Source: Phycisphaerae bacterium SM23_30
GTDB lineage: Bacteria; Planctomycetota; Phycisphaerae; Sedimentisphaerales; SM23-30
Reading direction: 5' to 3'
Length of the DNA stretch: 35,488 nt
Assembly: GCA_001303695.1 (NCBI GenBank)
Contig: LJUC01000005.1
Location: 1-35,488, forward strand
Shown: in pieces, positions 4,750 to 19,800 of the stretch
Numbering within the stretch: the stretch's first letter is position 1
Layout of the letters: each line of letters opens with the position of its first letter
Position numbers and translations under genes: made by a program
Notes under the pieces: generated by a model
What the model was told of the DNA's origin: nothing
The model's database searches: none
What the model saw: the letters and a program-made list of their open reading frames with translations, nothing else

Positions 4750-6101
4750 AAAAGATACTTATTGTTGACGATGACGTGGCGGTGACCAACTATTTCAATG
4801 TTTTTTTAACGCAGACGGGCCGCTTTAACCTGGCGGTGGTTAACGATTCTCGCGAAGTAGCCGGCGCGCTGGCGCGGGAGCCCTTCGACATTATACTGCT
4901 GGACATGGACATGCCTAACGTGAGCGGGATAGACATCCTCAGCGACATGCGTCAGAAGGGCCTGGATATTCCGGTGGTGGTTCTGACGGGCGTCAGCGAC
5001 GTGGACCTGGCCGTTAACGCCATGAAGCTCGGCGCCTTTGATTATTTGATAAAACCGGTGGAGGATGAGAAGCTTTTAGAGGTACTCGAAAGTGCGGCGG
5101 CGCATCGGGATATCCATCAGACTATCGAACGGCTTCCGCCCCAGTTAACGCGGCAGGAACTAACCCATCCCGCCGCCTTCGACCATTTTCCCACCCGTGA
5201 TGCGGGTATGATCCGTCTTTTACACCAGGCGGAAAAGATGGCCTCCAGCGATCTGAGCATTTTTATCTGGGGGGAGCGGGGTACGGGCAAAGAATCTCTG
5301 GCGCGGGCCATTCATCAGGCCAGCGCCAGGGCGGAGAAACCTTTCCTGGCAGTGGAGGCGGACAGTCAGGACCCGGAGAGGTTTTGCGCCTTTTTCTTCG
5401 GTCAGGCCCGGAGATGGAGCAGTTCCGAGCAGGAGTCAACCGGCATATTGGAAGAAGCCGACGGGGGAACTTTGTTTCTGGACAACATCGACGCCCTGAC
5501 GCTGCCGGTGCAGGTACGACTTAAGCGGGTGATCCAGACGGGAGAATACTGCCGGGAAAGCTCCGCGCAGGTGCGAAAAATTGATGTTCGGATGATTGTC
5601 TCATCCACGCACGACCTCACCCTTCAGGAGTACGAAGATGTATTTTCCCGAGACCTGCTGTATCATCTGATGGTCAACTCGATCAGGATTCCGTCCCTCA
5701 GGGAACGGCTCGACGACCTCGGCTTGCTGGCGGAGCATTTTCTGAAAGAACAATGCCAAAAAACGGGAAAGAAGATCACGGGCTTTTCCCGGGATTTCCT
5801 CGATTGCCTGAGGAGATACAGCTTTCCCGATAATGTACAGGAGCTGGGCACCATTATCGCCGGGGCGGTGGCCGGGGCGGAATCCGACATTATCACCGAA
5901 AGCGCCCTGCCTGCCTATATCAAAGACCAGATCAAGCCGGAAGCCGCCGCGGCCGGTGAAGGTTTCCGGCCCCGGAGACTGGAAGAGGTAATCAAAGAGC
6001 ATGTTCAGAATACTTTGGAGTATTTCGGGCAGGATCGGCAGAAAGCGGCAGAAAGATTAGGGGTGCCGCTCGAAGAAATCGATCGAATCATCGGGGGATA
6101 A
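4746..6101 (+). CDS. NtrC-family response regulator: receiver, sigma54-type AAA+ domain (degenerate motifs), short Fis-like C-terminus
   Basis: Receiver KKILIVDDDVAV...IILLDMDMPNVSG...LIKPVEDEKL; Walker A GERGTGKE; Walker B-like GGTLFLDNID; SLRERLDDL; C-term RRLEEVIKEHVQNTLEYFGQDRQKAAERLGV; 4-nt overlap with the kinase gene. Confidence 0.9.
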   Translation: MKKILIVDDDVAVTNYFNVFLTQTGRFNLAVVNDSREVAGALAREPFDIILLDMDMPNVSGIDILSDMRQKGLDIPVVVLTGVSDVDLAVNAMKLGAFDYLIKPVEDEKLLEVLESAAAHRDIHQTIERLPPQLTRQELTHPAAFDHFPTRDAGMIRLLHQAEKMASSDLSIFIWGERGTGKESLARAIHQASARAEKPFLAVEADSQDPERFCAFFFGQARRWSSSEQESTGILEEADGGTLFLDNIDALTLPVQVRLKRVIQTGEYCRESSAQVRKIDVRMIVSSTHDLTLQEYEDVFSRDLLYHLMVNSIRIPSLRERLDDLGLLAEHFLKEQCQKTGKKITGFSRDFLDCLRRYSFPDNVQELGTIIAGAVAGAESDIITESALPAYIKDQIKPEAAAAGEGFRPRRLEEVIKEHVQNTLEYFGQDRQKAAERLGVPLEEIDRIIGG

Positions 6102-6172
6102 ATAGATTTTTTCCCGGCGTTTCGGGGCTCAGAATGACGGAAGTAGCTGCCGGTGTGGCAAGGGAGGTTTTG

Positions 6173-6406
6173 TTATAGGTTTCTAGTATCTGCACCGGCG
6201 TCTTGTTTACCCTGTTTTTCTTTCCAGGTGTTTATGACATCGCTGAACTTTTCATCGATATGCCGGATAAACCAAACGTCAATTATCGACTTTTTGAAGC
6301 GCCACTCCCGTCCTAATTTAGCGGCAGGTATTTTTTTTTCCTGGGCCCAGGTATAAATGGTCTGAGGTTTGAGTCTCAGATAGGCGGCCACTTCTTCCAG
6401 GGTCAT
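6173..6406 (-). CDS. Excisionase/MerR-like helix-turn-helix DNA-binding protein (HTH_17 type)
   Basis: MTLEEVAAYLRLKPQTIYTWAQEKKIPAAKLGREWRFKKSIIDVW; the provided ORF starts at 6478, but the ATG at 6406 (or GTG at 6421) fits better because 6478 lies deep inside the upstream gene. Confidence 0.85.
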   Translation of the reverse strand: MTLEEVAAYLRLKPQTIYTWAQEKKIPAAKLGREWRFKKSIIDVWFIRHIDEKFSDVINTWKEKQGKQDAGADTRNL

Positions 6407-6410
6407 AATG

Positions 6411-7190
6411 TCATTTTCCACTGACTTTTCCTTCTTTGTTGGGTTCCATGGTATCCTGAGCCGCCGACGGTTCGACATTCTTACGGTTAGTTTTCTCCGG
6501 GGCAGATTTAACCAAGTCTGTCATGGATCGAATCACCGCTATATAAAAGTTTCCTTCTCGCGCCCTAAATAATTCAAAGGGCAGATCTCGGGCCCCGATA
6601 AAGGGTCTCAAATTCCAGGCCAGCTGCATGCCGACGAAGGCCAGGATTATAATCCAAAACCGGAAAACAACCACCCCGGTTCTCGGATAAATATTTTTTT
6701 TCTCGCAGGAGAAGCGCAAGGCGTCCAAGATAGTTTTCATACCGAAGATACCGGCCAGGGCGAATATGACAACATGTAAAAGTTTCAGGAAAGAGTAGTT
6801 GTCGCCGGTGATGACAAAGAAAAGGACAATGGGGGCGAAGGCGACCATAATCAGCCCCATCACCACAAAGCCTGACAGGATAACCATAAACACCTGCCAG
6901 AACCTAAGCCGGGACCCCAGAGCGTATTGAATGATAAAAAAGGCGGGAAAGCATATTAACATCCCCAGTGAAAGAAGCAGAGGTACTTTTATGGCAGAGG
7001 CAAGCGCCTGTCGATAATCAAAGAAGCTTCCCATAACAATGCCATACACAAACGAACAGATAATCAAGAGTTTGAACAGGTTCACCGCTCGAGGCAGCAT
7101 GTTTTCATCGCTGATTAACGTTTCAAAGAACTTTTCCTTATCCTGAAAATCCCGAAAGAATTCCGTCGATAATATTCTTTTTTTCTCCAT
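6411..7190 (-). CDS. Yip1-like multi-pass membrane protein of unknown function
   Basis: Several hydrophobic segments (LFKLLIICSFVYGIVMG, LLLSLGMLICFPAFFIIQYAL, VFMVILSGFVVMGLIMVAFAPIVLFFVI); Yip1-like layout. Confidence 0.65.
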   Translation of the reverse strand: MEKKRILSTEFFRDFQDKEKFFETLISDENMLPRAVNLFKLLIICSFVYGIVMGSFFDYRQALASAIKVPLLLSLGMLICFPAFFIIQYALGSRLRFWQVFMVILSGFVVMGLIMVAFAPIVLFFVITGDNYSFLKLLHVVIFALAGIFGMKTILDALRFSCEKKNIYPRTGVVVFRFWIIILAFVGMQLAWNLRPFIGARDLPFELFRAREGNFYIAVIRSMTDLVKSAPEKTNRKNVEPSAAQDTMEPNKEGKVSGK

Positions 7191-7199
7191 AGATTTCTC

Positions 7200-7380
7200 C
7201 TTATTTAATATTTATTATATATTTTAAGTGTATATTATGTATTTATCAAATATAATGTTATATATTACTGTATATTATTATATATTATTATTTTACTCGG
7301 TAAAATGGGAATATTAGTTTAGGGGGGTATATTCTTTAAGTCATTTATTTACAAAAGTTTACATTGAATGAGGAGTGCAA
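7200..7380. promoter_or_regulatory. AT-rich intergenic island with TATATTA-type repeats
   Basis: TATATTACTG TATATTATTA TATATTATTA at 7261-7290 is three adjacent 10-bp units; related TATATTATG and ATATAATG upstream; strongly AT-rich against a GC-richer window. Confidence 0.6.
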
Positions 7381-7411
7381 TTAGGATATTAACGCTAAAG
7401 GTGGAGGCTAT

Positions 7412-8509
7412 TCAGCCGATGACTTCTTTGAAGACCCGATAGAAATTTTGGCCCATGATTTTTTCGATGTCGCCGGTTTTATAGCGGCGTTTTTCGAGGC
7501 CGGTGCGAACGGTCTCCATGCGTCGGGGCCCGTTTAATTCGGCAATGAAAAAGGGCCAGTCGATCTGGTTCACCTCGGCGCCGCGGAAGACACCTTTGGT
7601 GCTTTTGCCGACCATTTCCTTTTGCAGGCGCTTAAATTCTTGCTCGGTATCGGGAATATATTGGTGTTCGCGGTCGCTGGAGATGCCGACGTGGTCGAGG
7701 CCGGCAACTTTGACGGCGTGATCGATGTGGTTTAAGTAATCATCCAGGGTGTTGCGTTGTTTGGGGCCTAAAAAAGGATTGATCTGATAGATGCCGATGA
7801 CGCCGCCCTTATCGGCCAGGGCTCTCATGTTTTCGTCGGTGGTGTTTCGGGGGTGATCGAAGACGGTCTTGCAGCCGGAATGACCGACGATGACGGTTTT
7901 TTTGGAGTATTTGATGCCGTCGGCCATGGTGGCCATGGAGGCGTGGGATAAATCGACCAGCATATTCAGGCGGTTCATGCGATCAATGACCTGCAGGCCG
8001 AATTCGGAGAGGCCGGCGTTGGTGCGGTCCATGCAGCCGTCGCCCACCAGATTCCTGACATTGTAGGTCAGTTGAATGCTGGTGACGCCGAGGTTGCGGA
8101 AAAAGTCAATCTTATCGAGGTCATATTCGATGGGGGTGGCGTTCTGGAAGTAGTACATCAAGGCCAGGCGGCCTTGTTTTTGGGCCTTGTCGAGGTCGGC
8201 GACGCAGGCGGCTTTGGTGAGAAAGTCTCGATTATCATTGACGTACCGTTCATACTGCGCATAGGTATCAACTACAATCCTGAATGCCCGAGAGGGAGGC
8301 AGAGGGCTGCCCAGGGAGATGCGTACGACGTTGGTGCCGCCGGCGAGCACCTCTTTAATCAGGTCCATGGGATAAGTGACTCTGATTTCGGCCATTCCGT
8401 CGATAACGAGGGAATTGGATTTTTGTTGAGGTCTGGCGCTATCGGCCATACCCCAGGCAAGAGCGGGTACGGCTAAAGATGCGGTTTTTAAGAAATCTCG
8501 TCTGTTCAT
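7412..8509 (-). CDS. Peptidase M19 (membrane dipeptidase)-like protein, Tat-signal bearing, divergent metal site
   Basis: Tat signal MNRRDFLKTASLAVPALAWG; M19 landmarks GLSEFGLQVIDRMNRLNMLVDLSHAS, GHSGCKTVFDHPRNTTDENMRALADKGGVIGIYQINPFLG, VGISSDREH, GDIEKIMGQNFYRV. Confidence 0.88.
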   Translation of the reverse strand: MNRRDFLKTASLAVPALAWGMADSARPQQKSNSLVIDGMAEIRVTYPMDLIKEVLAGGTNVVRISLGSPLPPSRAFRIVVDTYAQYERYVNDNRDFLTKAACVADLDKAQKQGRLALMYYFQNATPIEYDLDKIDFFRNLGVTSIQLTYNVRNLVGDGCMDRTNAGLSEFGLQVIDRMNRLNMLVDLSHASMATMADGIKYSKKTVIVGHSGCKTVFDHPRNTTDENMRALADKGGVIGIYQINPFLGPKQRNTLDDYLNHIDHAVKVAGLDHVGISSDREHQYIPDTEQEFKRLQKEMVGKSTKGVFRGAEVNQIDWPFFIAELNGPRRMETVRTGLEKRRYKTGDIEKIMGQNFYRVFKEVIG

Positions 8510-8528
8510 AGTAAATTCCTATTAGTTA

Positions 8529-9530
8529 TCAGCCGTTTACCTCTTTTATTAGTCGGCGGCAATTTTGGCCCATGATCTTTTCGATGTCGGAGGTTTTGTA
8601 TTTTCTTTTTTCGAGGCCCCGGCGGATGGTTTCCATGCGGCGCGGGTGGTTGAGTTCGGAGATGAAGAAGGGCCAGGGGATTTTTTGTTTTTTATCGGGA
8701 TAGTAATTAGCCAGTTCCTCTTCCAGTTTCTTTCTTTCTTCATCAGTGTCGGGGATGGTGCGATGTTCGCGGTCGCTGCCGACGGCGACGTGGTCAACGC
8801 CGGCGACTTTGACGGCGTGATCGATGTGGTTTAAGTAATCATCAAGGTTGTTGCGGTCTTTGGGGCCCAGGAAGGGATTGATCTGGTAGATGCCGATGAG
8901 GCCGCCCTGGTCGGCCAGGGCCTTTAAGTTTTTATCGTCGGTGTTTCTCGGATGGTCGAAGACGGTTTTGCAGCCGGAATGGGAAATAATAACCGGCTTC
9001 TGGGAAAATTTAAGGGCGTCGGCCATCGTGGCCATACAGGCATGAGATAGATCAATGAGCATACCCAGTTGGTTCATTTTATAAACTACATTGATGCCGA
9101 ATTCGGAAAGGCCGCTGTTGGTGCGTTCCATGCAGCCGTCGCCGACGAGATTTCTGGTGTTGTAGGTAAGCTGGATGCTGCGGACGCCGAGGTTGTTAAA
9201 AAAGTTCAGCTTGTCGAGGTCATCGGCGATGGGGGTGGTGTTCTGAAACAGGTACATTATCGCCAGGCGGCCTTCTTTTTGGGCCCTGTCGAGGTCGGCG
9301 GCGCAGGTGGCTTTGAGAAAATAATCGCGGTGGGCGTCGATATGCCGTTCGTAGGCGGCCAGTTCGTTTATCACATTATCGAAGGCCTCCGGGCCATGCA
9401 GGGTGGGATCGCCCAAGGTTATCCGTACGCAGCAAGTGCCGCTATGGAGGATTTCGGCGATCAGGTTCATGGGATAATCCAGTCTGATTTCGCCCATGGT
9501 ATCGATAAGCGGTTTAAGCTTTTGTTCCAT
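8529..9530 (-). CDS. Peptidase M19-like protein, tandem paralogue without a signal peptide
   Basis: Collinear with the 7412-8509 product (GLSEFGINVVYKMNQLGMLIDLSHAC, SHSGCKTVFDHPRNTDDKNLKALADQGGLIGIYQINPFLGPKDRN); starts MEQKLKPLIDTMGEIRLDYP. Confidence 0.87.
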   Translation of the reverse strand: MEQKLKPLIDTMGEIRLDYPMNLIAEILHSGTCCVRITLGDPTLHGPEAFDNVINELAAYERHIDAHRDYFLKATCAADLDRAQKEGRLAIMYLFQNTTPIADDLDKLNFFNNLGVRSIQLTYNTRNLVGDGCMERTNSGLSEFGINVVYKMNQLGMLIDLSHACMATMADALKFSQKPVIISHSGCKTVFDHPRNTDDKNLKALADQGGLIGIYQINPFLGPKDRNNLDDYLNHIDHAVKVAGVDHVAVGSDREHRTIPDTDEERKKLEEELANYYPDKKQKIPWPFFISELNHPRRMETIRRGLEKRKYKTSDIEKIMGQNCRRLIKEVNG

Positions 9531-9978
9531 ATAGCTTCGCCCTTTCCTAACTTTAAGGCTTTAATATTGATGAAGGCGCCGAGGTTTATCGCCTTATCAC
9601 TGCGTGCCTTGCCGATTCTCTTTTCCGCGAAACGCTTATTGGTGAAGCAGGGCGTCGGCTGGGCGGCACCGATGACGTCCGGTTCGGCAAAACGGGATTT
9701 TATTTTACCGGAGATTATCCGGATGTACTTTTATTATCCGTGTTTTTTCTACGGTTTAACATGCTACCTAATCCACCCGGGATATGCAAACCATTTAGCC
9801 ACAATTTCCATTTTGCAGAAGGGGAAAGAACCACTATAATTGTAAATATTGCCTATACCAGTTGTTATGAACGGCATTGAGGAGCGGGGGCATTATTTGG
9901 TTGAAAGAGGCAGGTTTGATCGCATTATATATTAACGGGACTTTTGTAAGACCTTAGTGATTAAGGAAGGCGGTTCAT

Positions 9979-14415: not shown

Positions 14416-16509
14416 ATGAACACCTGTCTAAAGAAAATCGGATGGCTTTTAATCCCGGGATTAGCATTGCTTTTCATGGCCGATCCGGCCTGGAGTCAAC
14501 GGGGACTGCGGGGAGCACGAGGAGGGCAGGAATCGCGCCAGGAACGGTTGTACGTCAGCAACGAACCCAACGACCATCCCCGAACTAATTACGAGAGGGC
14601 CATGCAGCAAAAGGCCGAGACCGACAGGCAATTTGAAGAGGCCTGCGCCGGTATTATTGATTATAAAAAGATCGAATATCGCAGCCGCATCGGCGATCTG
14701 GATATCCCGGCCTATGTGTTTCAACCGCTGGAGAAGCGCGGCCCCAAGGGCCATGCCGCTATGGTCTGGGTGCATGGCGGGGTGCACAGCAACATGGGCT
14801 TTAGTTATTTTCGTTTTATCGCCGAAGCGGTGGAGCGCGGCTATGTGATTATTTGTCCGGAATATCGCGGCAGCACCGGCTACGGGGAGGAATTTCACCG
14901 GGAGATTGATTACGGCGGTTATGAAGTCGATGACTGCATCACGGCGTACGATTACCTTAAAGAGAATCTGCCCCACATCGATCCGGAACGGATCGGCATA
15001 ATGGGCTGGAGTCATGGGGGCTTTATCACCTGCCACGCCCTGTTCCGTGAAAATCAGACCGAGTTCAAATGCGGGGCAGCGATAGTACCGGTTACTAATT
15101 TGATCTTTCGTTTATCTTATAAGGGGCCCAGCTATCAGCGTTCTTTTTCCACCCAGAAACGTCTTCAGGGTTTACCTTTTGAAAATAGAGAAGAATATGT
15201 CAAGCGTTCGCCGGTCTATCATGTTGATAATCTGCAGGTGCCGATTTTATGCCATGTCGCCACCAACGACCAGGATGTAAATTTTGTCGAATGCGAGGCC
15301 ATGATCAACGCCCTGCGGGCCAAAAAGCCGTATCTGTCGGAAACCAAGGTCTATGTCGATCCACCTTTTGGGCACAGTTTCAGCCGCCGGGGCGATTCGC
15401 GTGAACTTAAGGACTCCTGGGAACGCACCTGGACGTTTTTCGAGTGGAATCTCCAGCCGAATTTGGATAAATCGGCCCCCGCCGTCGAAGAGCCCAGAGA
15501 AGAAATTAGCCCTCTCGAACGAATCCATCAAAGGACGGTATTCGCCGATATGCACGCCCATCCGGACCAGTTTCATCGGGCCAATGTCGAACGTATCAGC
15601 CGCGAAGAACTCGACCGGTATCGCCGGGGGCTGATCGACGTGGTGGTGTGCAATGTCAGCTCCGATGCGGCTTACCAGGGCGGTTACACCAAGCGCGACG
15701 GCACCCGAATCAGGCGTTTGGGGGCCGGGGAAGATTATACCCTCCAGCCGGGAGAGGCGTTTGATTTTACGGTGGACCGCCTGGAAAGGGTATTCAAGAC
15801 CATCGAAGAAGATGAGGACGTGGTCTTAGCCTCTGATCCCCGCACGGTGATGCGCGCCAAAAGGCGGGGCCAAATTGCCCTGATCCCGGCCCTGGAAGGC
15901 GCCGACGGATTGGAAGGAAAAATAAGCAACCTTCACCAACTGCACCGTCAGGGATTGCGGCTGCTGCAATTTGTGCATTTTCGAGCAAACGAACTGGGGT
16001 ATATTCAGACCCGACCCTATCAGGCGGGCGGCCTGACCGACTTTGGCCAAGAGGTCGTTAGAGAATGCAACCGGCTGGGGATTATCATCGACCTGGCCCA
16101 TGCGCACAAAGAAACAACATTAGACGCGGTGAGAGTATCCGAAGATCCGATCATTTTCAGTCACACCGGCGTGAAAAAGCTTTATGAGGGGGATCGCTAT
16201 CTCTCCGACGACGAGATAAAAGCCATCGCCTCTAAAGGGGGCATCATCGGCATCTGGCCTTCTTCTTCCTTTAAAAATATGAAAGAGATGGTCCGCCACA
16301 TTGATTATGTAAAAGATCTGGTCGGCATCGATCACGTGGGCATCGGCAGTGATCTGAGAGGCATGAGCTATGTCCCGGAATTCGGCGAGGAAGCCCGTTT
16401 CCGGGCCATTGCCGAAGCCCTTTTGGATAGCGGATATTCCGCCGACGATGTCGGCAAAATAATGGGCGGCAATTTCTTTAGGCTCTGGCAGCAAATAAGC
16501 AGGAATTGA
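14416..16509 (+). CDS. Secreted fusion protein: S9-type alpha/beta-hydrolase (prolyl oligopeptidase-like) plus C-terminal M19 dipeptidase domain
   Basis: Signal peptide; GWSHGGF nucleophile elbow, TNDQDV and PFGHSF for the triad Asp and His; C-terminal M19 motifs FADMHAHPD, PALEGADGLEG, GLTDFGQEVVRECNRLGIIIDLAHAH, FSHTGVK, GIDHVGIGSDLRG, VGKIMGGNFFRLW. Confidence 0.92.
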   Translation: MNTCLKKIGWLLIPGLALLFMADPAWSQRGLRGARGGQESRQERLYVSNEPNDHPRTNYERAMQQKAETDRQFEEACAGIIDYKKIEYRSRIGDLDIPAYVFQPLEKRGPKGHAAMVWVHGGVHSNMGFSYFRFIAEAVERGYVIICPEYRGSTGYGEEFHREIDYGGYEVDDCITAYDYLKENLPHIDPERIGIMGWSHGGFITCHALFRENQTEFKCGAAIVPVTNLIFRLSYKGPSYQRSFSTQKRLQGLPFENREEYVKRSPVYHVDNLQVPILCHVATNDQDVNFVECEAMINALRAKKPYLSETKVYVDPPFGHSFSRRGDSRELKDSWERTWTFFEWNLQPNLDKSAPAVEEPREEISPLERIHQRTVFADMHAHPDQFHRANVERISREELDRYRRGLIDVVVCNVSSDAAYQGGYTKRDGTRIRRLGAGEDYTLQPGEAFDFTVDRLERVFKTIEEDEDVVLASDPRTVMRAKRRGQIALIPALEGADGLEGKISNLHQLHRQGLRLLQFVHFRANELGYIQTRPYQAGGLTDFGQEVVRECNRLGIIIDLAHAHKETTLDAVRVSEDPIIFSHTGVKKLYEGDRYLSDDEIKAIASKGGIIGIWPSSSFKNMKEMVRHIDYVKDLVGIDHVGIGSDLRGMSYVPEFGEEARFRAIAEALLDSGYSADDVGKIMGGNFFRLWQQISRN

Positions 16510-16528
16510 AACGTCAAATGGTTCCTGT

Positions 16529-16598
16529 TGTTATAAACATTTTTTAGCCGTAGAGACGCAAAATTTCGCGTCTCTACGCACGGCTGCTGTTTATAACA
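16529..16598. repeat. Nested inverted repeat (dispersed-repeat-like)
   Basis: Outer arms TGTTATAAACA (16529-16539) and TGTTTATAACA (16588-16598); inner arms GTAGAGACGC (16550-16559) and GCGTCTCTAC (16568-16577); additional AGCC/GGCT pairing. Confidence 0.75.
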
Positions 16599-16623
16599 TT
16601 CAAAAATTAAAATTCCATTAGAA

Positions 16624-16661
16624 AGCCCTGCCCGGCGCCAAATAGCCCGGCAGGGCTTTTT
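16624..16661 (+). terminator. Rho-independent terminator
   Basis: AGCCCTGCC ... GGCAGGGCT stem followed by TTTTT, about 115 bp downstream of the S9-M19 stop codon. Confidence 0.8.
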
Positions 16662-16708
16662 GGCCATAAAGGCAACCTTTACTGCAATTTACGTCACATT
16701 TTATTTTC

Positions 16709-16736
16709 TTGACAAATTGACAGCTTAATATATAAT
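16709..16736 (+). promoter_or_regulatory. Sigma70-type promoter for the beta-helix protein gene
   Basis: TTGACA (16709-16714), 16-nt spacer, TATAAT (16731-16736). Confidence 0.7.
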
Positions 16737-16872
16737 CTAATAATTAGTAGTACAGTCAAGCTTGAGATCTTGTTCGCGTCTGGCAATAAAGTGAGGAGAA
16801 CTCTTTTCCTAAAATTCTCTTATCTCAATTATCACGCGGCTAATTTACCACATATTATTGAAAGGGTAGAAA

Positions 16873-19800
16873 ATGAAACAAAGAAAAGGTCTATTTAGCG
16901 TCGCCATTTTAGCTTTGGTGCTTTTGGTCTGCGGTTTTGGTCTGACTCCAAATGCCCAAGCGGCAGATAAGATTGCGGTTACCATTCTTTCTCCAACATT
17001 CCCGGCGGCATTGGTCAACAATGACCATGTTACCGTCAGCTTTAAGTATACCACAGATGATTTGGGCGGGGTGCGTATTTGGGTAATTCCCTATACCAAA
17101 GGATCAATATCTCCTGGTGCGGCATGGCAAGGCTCAGCCTTGGAACCTTTTCCCAGCGGCTCGAGCAGCAGGTATTTTACCATTACCTCCGATGATGTGC
17201 ATGTAGATCAGTTTAGAATCTACATGAAATCTAACGCCTCAGGCAAGTTGCTTTTCGAAGATTTTATCGATGTGGATTATCATTTTGGTAATGCCATCGT
17301 CAATATTGTCCCCAGCCCTTCTTCTCCGCATGGGCTATTAAATGAGGAATATGTCCTGGTTGACTTTGACTATTCCACCAATAAAGTAAATGGTGTTCGT
17401 ATTTGGGTACTAGCTTATTCCGGTGGGGTCGTCAACCCGGATCAATGGTACTACGGTTCCCCGATTGTTTATGGCAGCGGCAGCCTCACCAGAGGTTTCA
17501 CTATTCCCGCTTCCGCGGGAGATGCGTTTGTCGATCAATTTAGAATCTACATGAGAGATGAAGACACCGGTCTGACGCTTTGGGAAAAATTCGTTGATGT
17601 GGAATACTATTTCGGTAATTCCATCACCAATATTAACATGGTTCCCGCCTCACCGTCCCTCCTGATAACCGGCCAAGACATAAACATTACCTTCGACTGT
17701 GCCACTATGGACCCCTTGGGGGCATATGTTTTTGCCCGACCCTACACCAATGGTGTGGTGACTTATGATTACGCGGCCTCCGGCGGGGATTATTTTACCG
17801 GAACGGATTCCGGCACCCAATCTTTTGATATTAACACCGATAACCAGAGAATCGATCAGATCAGATTCTATATGTATAATAACGATAAAACAGTAATTCT
17901 AGTAGATTTCTTTGTCGATGTGGATTATCATATCAGTGACTCCGGATCATGCATTTGGTATGTCGATGCCGACGCGGTCGGGTACGAAACGGGCCGTAAT
18001 TGGTATCATGCGTTCAACGATCTTCAGGATGCGTTGGGGGCGGCCTGGCCCGGGGATCAGATCTGGGTGGCAGAAGGTAATTACAAACCCGACCAGGGTG
18101 TCGGTTTCACTTCCGGTGATCGCAATGCCACCTTCTCCCTGAAAAACGAAGTGGAAATCTACGGCGGCTTCGGCGGCACCGAATCCATCCGCGACGAAAG
18201 AGATTGGCACGCCCACGAAACCATCCTCTCCGGTGAGATCGGCAACGGGGGAATGGTCACCGACAACAGTTTTCATGTGGTTTACAGCGCATCTAATGAC
18301 GCTACGGCCATCCTGGACGGATTCACTATCTCCGGCGGCTATAATGTCGGTGAGGCCTACCCGGATTACGTCGGGGCCGGCATGCTAATTATGATAGGAG
18401 GAGAACCAACTGTAAGCAACTGTTTGTTTACTGATAATGACGGCGGCAACGGGGGCGGTCTGGGTGTCTGGGCCTCGAGCAGCCCTTCTCTGTTCAACTG
18501 CATCTTCATGGACAACACGGCCAGCATCGCGGGCGGTGGAGTCTCCTTACAACACAGCAATCCGGTCTTTGTCTCCTGTATGTTCCTCGGGAATATTTCC
18601 GGCGGCGGCGGCGGCTTGATGGCTCTGGATAACTATGCCGCTCCTATACTTACCAACTGCGTTTTCAGCGGCAATTCCTCCGCCGGTTATGGAGGGGCGA
18701 TCTATAACGCCGGTGTCGGGGGCAATCCCAATGGTTTTCCCCCGGAACTGCAAAACTGCTCCCTCAACGAAAACTCCGCCGTTTTTTCCGGCGGCGGTAT
18801 TCATAACGCCGGCGGTAACGACGTGGTTCTCAACAGTTGTATCCTCTGGGCCAACACCGACGCCGGCGGCGACGATGAGTCAGCCCAATTTTTCGATTCG
18901 AGCGGCGCCCCGACTATTGAATACAGTTGTCTCCAGGGCTGGACGGGAGGCTGGGGTGGTCCGGGAAATATCGGAACCGATCCTATGTTTGTCGATCCGG
19001 ATGGCCTGGACGACATCCTGGGCAACCTGGATGACAACCTTAGGTTACAGGTAACATCGCCCTGTATTGATACCGGCGATCCAAATCCTTTAATGAATGA
19101 TTCCGATGGCACCCGTAACGACATGGGAGCTTACGGGGGACCGGGCGCCGATCTGGGAGGCATCGGGGTTATTCCAGGCAGTGGATTTCTCTTTACCGAC
19201 GTAGGTAATATCCCCCGTTCTGAAATCACACAAGACGACCTCAATCCCAACTTATTGCAGGGAACCGCCAATGTGGTGGGATCCGGCCTGGGTATTCCTA
19301 CTTATGTTAACACCGCCTTCGGCAGAAGCCTCTGGCTCCATGGCCTCTTCGGTGCTGATAACATGGATGATATTGATTACTACCAGGTTTTGGCTGGCCT
19401 CTGGGACGGCACTACCCCTCCCGATCCCCTCGAACCCGGCGACTGGGTTACTCTGGACGATAAACTGGTCAAGGTGCGCTGGTTCTATACCACCGAATGG
19501 GAGTCGGAATATGTTACTATCGGACCTCGCGAAATCGACGGCGTCGAAGATCTATATCTATTAACCCCCACGCCCACCGATGATATGTGGTCCCGCCTGA
19601 CAGTGAGGATCATCTGGAACACCAGAAATTACGCCAACGGCTTATATACCTTAACCGTCAAGGCCTATCGTGAGGATCCCCCCGGCAACCTGACTGATGT
19701 CACGGCGTCGCTGGGAGATATCGCCGCCGGCGAACTGATCCTGCGGATCGACAATACTCCGGTAACGTCGATCATCCACAACGTCAAATACGATCCCGAT

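Follow-up and report, generated by a model that had tools for sequence, protein, structure and literature searches.

A tandem pair of M19-fold proteins belongs to a conserved M19 branch with altered metal-site residues

Two adjacent genes encoding M19-like proteins lie on the minus strand at positions 7412-9530 of the stretch analysed here (the window, 35,488 nucleotides of Phycisphaerae bacterium SM23_30), and both depart from the canonical dipeptidase motif at the first metal site. Are they decaying dipeptidases, or members of a selected subfamily with altered metal use or a non-peptidase function, as the original prediction proposed?

The gene pair and its active-site residues

P2 (8529-9530, minus strand, 333 aa) precedes P1 (7412-8509, minus strand, 365 aa), and the 19-bp gap from the P2 stop to the P1 start (8510-8528, minus strand) makes a single transcript likely. 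The two proteins are 67% identical. With Pfam scores of 273 and 262 bits against a cut-off of 26 and an M19 fold, they belong to PF01244 Peptidase_M19; the predicted tandem M19-like genes are thus both present, together with all the motifs quoted for them. The predicted structure of P2 (mean pLDDT 94) matches M19 structures, including PDB 2i5g and true dipeptidases. NCBIfam gave no family name for the pair except the Tat domain, and PADLOC gave no assignment.

Canonical M19 proteins carry H-D-E-(H or W)-H-H-R-D at positions 20, 22, 125, 152, 198, 219, 230 and 288 (human renal dipeptidase numbering, used here for all sites), Trp152 being found in one group. H20 and D22 bind the first metal, E125 bridges, H198 and H219 bind the second metal, H152 and R230 contact the substrate, and D288 is the base. 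Alignment to about 100 M19 proteins and PDB 2i5g, and then to 135 proteins, showed that P1 and P2 both read M-E-Q-Y-H-H-R-D at these positions. The corresponding residues are M39, E41, Q122, Y149, H189, H210, R221 and D279 in P1 (from alignment) and M12, E14, Q96, Y123, H163, H184, R195 and D253 in P2 (from alignment and conservation). The changes of H20 to Met, D22 to Glu and E125 to Gln that had been read from the motifs are borne out, and a fourth, H152 to Tyr (in LTYN), had been missed. H198, H219, R230 and D288 are retained in both proteins, in agreement with the earlier reading of the second-site His residues and the later Asp. Compared with a canonical two-metal M19 dipeptidase, P1 and P2 therefore have M, E and Q in place of H20, D22 and E125 but keep H198, H219 and D288. 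To call the first site lost would be too strong, since position 22 is still acidic, being a Glu that is invariant across the clade. The register at positions 20 and 22 depends on the MAFFT alignment, in which the Asp before them serves as anchor, because the Pfam alignments of P1 and P2 begin past the first strand (profile positions 40 and 59) and hhalign skips that strand.

The variant branch and the subclade of P1 and P2

We pooled 135 M19 sequences; the set was drawn with P1 and P2 as queries, is biased to their relatives and includes two duplicates (L026/L166 and L025/L163). Of these sequences, 78 combine Gln or Asn at position 125 with Tyr152 and have no H20, yet retain H198, H219 and D288, and R230 is retained in 77 of them. 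The remainder comprises 52 sequences of the canonical E125 class, four that show a third pattern, and a truncated relative of intermediate type. The D22 column is shifted for some canonical proteins in this multiple alignment, and the motif is seen directly in the alignment of about 100 proteins. The idea that Q125 and Y152 are perfectly coupled was abandoned, as four sequences combine Gln with H152 and one truncated sequence combines Glu with Y152. In the maximum-likelihood tree, the variant and canonical groups split at 100/99, and 2i5g, deposited as an 'amidohydrolase', falls inside the variant group by both tree and residues, as do P1 and P2. The site changes are clade characters rather than oddities of this pair, and they mark an old, conserved M19 branch. 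Many genes labelled 'membrane dipeptidase' lack the dipeptidase residues (the 78 above, in a biased set), and a large M19 branch probably bears this label wrongly. Our literature search found no measurement of the chemistry of the variant branch, no paper on the function of 2i5g, and nothing on PA5396, 2I5G, or M19 in connection with the amidohydrolase superfamily.

Other M19 arrangements were also observed. At 14416-16509 (plus strand) of the window, a prolyl-oligopeptidase-type S9 domain is fused to a C-terminal M19 domain, which keeps Glu125 and has DMHAHP in its first strand, with His replacing D22. Another tandem M19 pair occurs at four loci (L036, L037, L046 and L053, about 5830-8015); its first copy is of the variant type (Gln125, Tyr152), and its second, immediately after it, reads A-G-Q-H-G-H-M-D, so that H198 is missing too. 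A further variant M19 group from the phylum of the window (L012-L015 and L017-L024) has Tyr or Phe near position 20, an insertion past the first strand and no Glu125, while keeping H198, H219, R230 and D288.

Within the variant branch, the phylogeny suggested in the original prediction places P1 and P2 in a monophyletic subclade (support 100/99) with the motif (M/L)xE(I/L/M)R. A profile of this subclade (A2), built from six members, scores members at about 420-646 bits, one truncated match at 387 and the next relatives at no more than 314. P1 and P2 carry the motif and score within the clade range; as both were included in the profile, the tree is the independent part of this assignment. At E<=1e-90, A2 matches were found in 23 of 300 genomes in the Gemmatimonadota sample (two of these, G906 and G1012, below the clade range), 4 of 299 in the order around Euryhalocaulis, 1 of 296 in the order around Paraglaciecola, and 2 of 6 in the phylum of SM23_31, so that among the genomes searched the subclade is mostly found in Gemmatimonadota. 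Among 199 relatives of the source genome, a match was found in the source genome only, and close matches to P1 or P2 were otherwise absent from a phylum sample of 297 genomes. The sister of P1 is the protein of SM23_31, a member of another phylum, rather than P2 (100/100). Because P1 is nearer to this protein than to P2, we rejected a recent tandem duplication; either the split between P1 and P2 predates the divergence of P1 from the SM23_31 protein, or one copy was transferred. A foreign base composition was not seen, the GC content of both genes matching that of their neighbours.

Across 27 subclade members, E14, R16, Q96, N97, Y123, D160, H163, H184, R195, D253 and R254 (P2 numbering) are invariant, and H256, a clade-specific His three residues past D288, is nearly so. 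Because the changed residues are themselves invariant or nearly so, the altered site is more than chance. For the P1/P2 pair alone, synonymous sites being saturated in other pairs, dN is 0.249 and dS 0.863, giving dN/dS of about 0.29 (Nei-Gojobori). This conservation, the dN/dS and the confident P2 model uphold a selected subfamily rather than decay. The argument originally offered, that both copies share the same changes, does not hold, since they share them by common descent within one clade and are not independent evidence; the evidence for selection is the clade-wide conservation.

The TIGR01409 profile identifies a Tat signal in P1 (18.6 bits against a cut-off of 16.7). P2 has no in-frame signal, because a stop codon lies in frame 10 codons upstream of its start, and a search by eye of the other upstream frames for a surviving signal found none. 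A loose Tat pattern was present in 27 of the 28 sequences examined, P1 among them and P2 being the clear exception. By this sequence pattern, P2 appears to have lost an ancestral Tat signal. The predicted pairing of exported and cytoplasmic versions thus stands for this locus and fails as a trait of the subfamily: it is a local oddity, given the near-universal Tat pattern and the finding that, among the genomes searched, none besides the source genome has two clade-level members. It is well supported that the subclade represents a selected, ancestrally exported variant M19 protein. P1 and P2 thus belong to a real M19 subfamily, for which altered metal use or a non-peptidase function is plausible.

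Gene neighbourhoods and possible chemistry

The window's own neighbours of P1 and P2 show no clear pathway. Downstream of P1 (6411-7190, minus strand) lies a gene for a predicted 259-aa, apparently membrane-spanning protein with no Pfam match. The sequence at 9602-9700, upstream of P2, has one weak partial second copy (G000:C166:32747-32829, 70% over 83 bases); the first 21 bases of the query differed from the sequence of the window and did not align.

At other loci, collected as leads and without a control set, the neighbourhoods suggest catabolism of amino acids, imino acids and N-methyl amino acids. An aldehyde dehydrogenase is common to all five proteobacterial clade loci (L027, L028 and L160-L162), along with, as judged by eye, a TonB receptor, an XRE-cupin regulator and TPR proteins; the dehydrogenase of Paraglaciecola (L028) scores above the cut-off for L-piperidine-6-carboxylate dehydrogenase. 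In Euryhalocaulis caribicus (L027:2-1335), a class-III-type aminotransferase is split into two separate frames by a frameshift or sequencing error. Two Gemmatimonadota loci (L149 and L155) have an S58 peptidase, a class-III aminotransferase and an aldehyde dehydrogenase as neighbours, and in L155 the latter two exceed the AptA and MMSDH cut-offs, respectively. The remaining clade loci are varied (Amidohydro_3, beta-lactamase-fold, creatininase, SDF symporter, M28). Neighbours in the sister clades include BCCT transporters, a DMGDH-like protein, N-methyl-tryptophan oxidase, an MttB homologue, DUF3726 and Ldh_2. Ornithine-cyclodeaminase-family genes lie near variant M19 genes at L031, L046, L171 and L172, and that of L172, a sister-clade locus, is over the cut-off for the pyrroline/piperideine-2-carboxylate reductase family. 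A Pseudomonas gene labelled 'membrane dipeptidase, dgc operon' is induced by root exudates along with dimethylglycine demethylase genes (PMC8079746).

At seven loci, variant M19 genes adjoin a conserved pair (7311-9666 in L034, and also in L033, L039, L042, L043, L049 and L098). One member is about 520-540 aa long and has no Pfam match in L034; the other is a DUF3726 protein, and genes for a BCCT transporter and an aldehyde dehydrogenase are often close by. L172, from a Rhizobium leguminosarum plasmid, carries three M19 genes within 17 kb (1-713, 7920-8936 and 16371-16930), accompanied by peptide-type ABC transporters and its ornithine-cyclodeaminase-family gene. The third M19 gene, truncated where the stretch ends, seems intermediate, keeping H20 and E125 with Tyr at 152.

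As to the number of metals, the mechanism and the substrate, we infer a scheme that we favour tentatively, in which P1 and P2 would be one-metal, beta-site C-N hydrolases with a rebuilt pocket. Their selected subclade is nested in a large M19 branch that has given up the canonical first metal site. Hydrolysis of a C-N bond would rely on a single metal ion in the second (beta) site, with H198, H219 and perhaps also Gln125 as its ligands; D288 would act as general base, and R230 would bind the carboxylate of the substrate. The rebuilt first strand, with its invariant Glu22 and the Arg two residues on, and Tyr152 may shape the pocket for a substrate other than an ordinary dipeptide; judging from neighbouring genes, this could be an amino-acid-derived amide or a cyclic imino acid in peptide or amino-acid catabolism. 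P1 would act outside the inner membrane, and P2, its ancestral signal lost, would perform the same chemistry inside. Placing a single metal at the second site is the most parsimonious guess, by analogy with the beta-mononuclear amidohydrolases, an established class (PMC12017989), and the residue pattern of P1 and P2 is compatible with it. This scheme is favoured by the retention of H198, H219 and D288, the monophyly, the invariant residues, the purifying selection, the fold match and the catabolic genes near other members of the branch. Against it count the variation of neighbourhoods between lineages, the want of a clear pathway among the window's own neighbours, and the change of E125 to Gln, which leaves the beta site without its usual third protein ligand. 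In a bolder and improbable form, the clade would have a new M19 metal centre, either one beta-site metal or one based on Glu22 and Asp288, acting on cyclic imino or N-substituted amino acids rather than dipeptides; genes widely labelled 'membrane dipeptidase' would then encode a step in the catabolism of pipecolate, lysine or betaine that has gone unrecognised.

A serious rival, though one we doubt, is that hydrolysis has been lost and the proteins are binding or accessory proteins outside the membrane, as is thought for the periplasmic M19-fold protein PvdM (PDB 3b40, so identified by our fold search), whose operon pvdMNO has a first gene essential for pyoverdine formation (PMC6206403). The loss of H20, E125 and H152 and the ancestral Tat export would fit such a pseudoenzyme, but a scaffold alone would not need all of H198, H219, R230 and D288, which are fixed across a large and diverse branch. 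Glu22 could help to bind the substrate or belong to a first site that has been partly rebuilt. An ordinary two-metal hydrolase with a first site re-formed from Glu22, D288 and perhaps H256 (P2 numbering) would agree with the invariance of E14 and D253, the near invariance of H256 and the mildness of an Asp to Glu change; it is unlikely given that every clade member has Met or Leu for H20 and Gln for the bridging E125, and that Glu22 is absent from the sister clades too.

A metal-independent enzyme using the same pocket would have precedent in a recognised class of the amidohydrolase superfamily (PMC12017989), and the invariance of both second-site His residues makes this very unlikely. That the altered residues reflect decay or an assembly artefact is scarcely credible: the source assembly is an unfinished draft of 295 contigs, 78.5% complete, and none of the others among 199 relatives has a clade member, but the frames are intact, dN/dS is low, the GC content is neighbour-like and the same residues recur in many other genomes, the clade-wide conservation already contradicting this reading.

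Comparison with known systems

With the variant branch, natural versions of one fold that have and lack the first metal site can be compared, and the branch also supplies a solved yet unexplained structure (2i5g) and neighbourhoods that name candidate substrates. The canonical dipeptidases DPEP1 (1itq), Sco3058 (3id7), Lmo2462 (3neh) and GliJ (5lwz) share with P1 and P2 the fold, H198, H219, R230 and D288, but they keep H20, D22 and E125, which P1 and P2 do not. PvdM also has the M19 fold, and a non-dipeptidase role has been proposed for it (PMC6206403); it is distant (67 bits with P2). The arrangement proposed for P1 and P2, a single beta-site zinc with two His ligands, is that of D-aminoacylase and OngB (PMC12017989). 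These enzymes belong to families other than M19 and have Cys as the third ligand, where P1 and P2 would have at best Gln, and OngB, unlike the proposal for P1 and P2, additionally requires its HxH His residues (PMC12017989). The closest known system is 2i5g from Pseudomonas aeruginosa, the best match by sequence profile (230 bits) and by fold to the P2 model (TM 0.86/0.88). Like P1 and P2, it lacks H20, has Gln125 and Tyr152, and keeps H198, H219, R230 and D288; unlike them, its first strand lacks the xE of MxEIR (a two-residue gap), and it belongs to another subclade.
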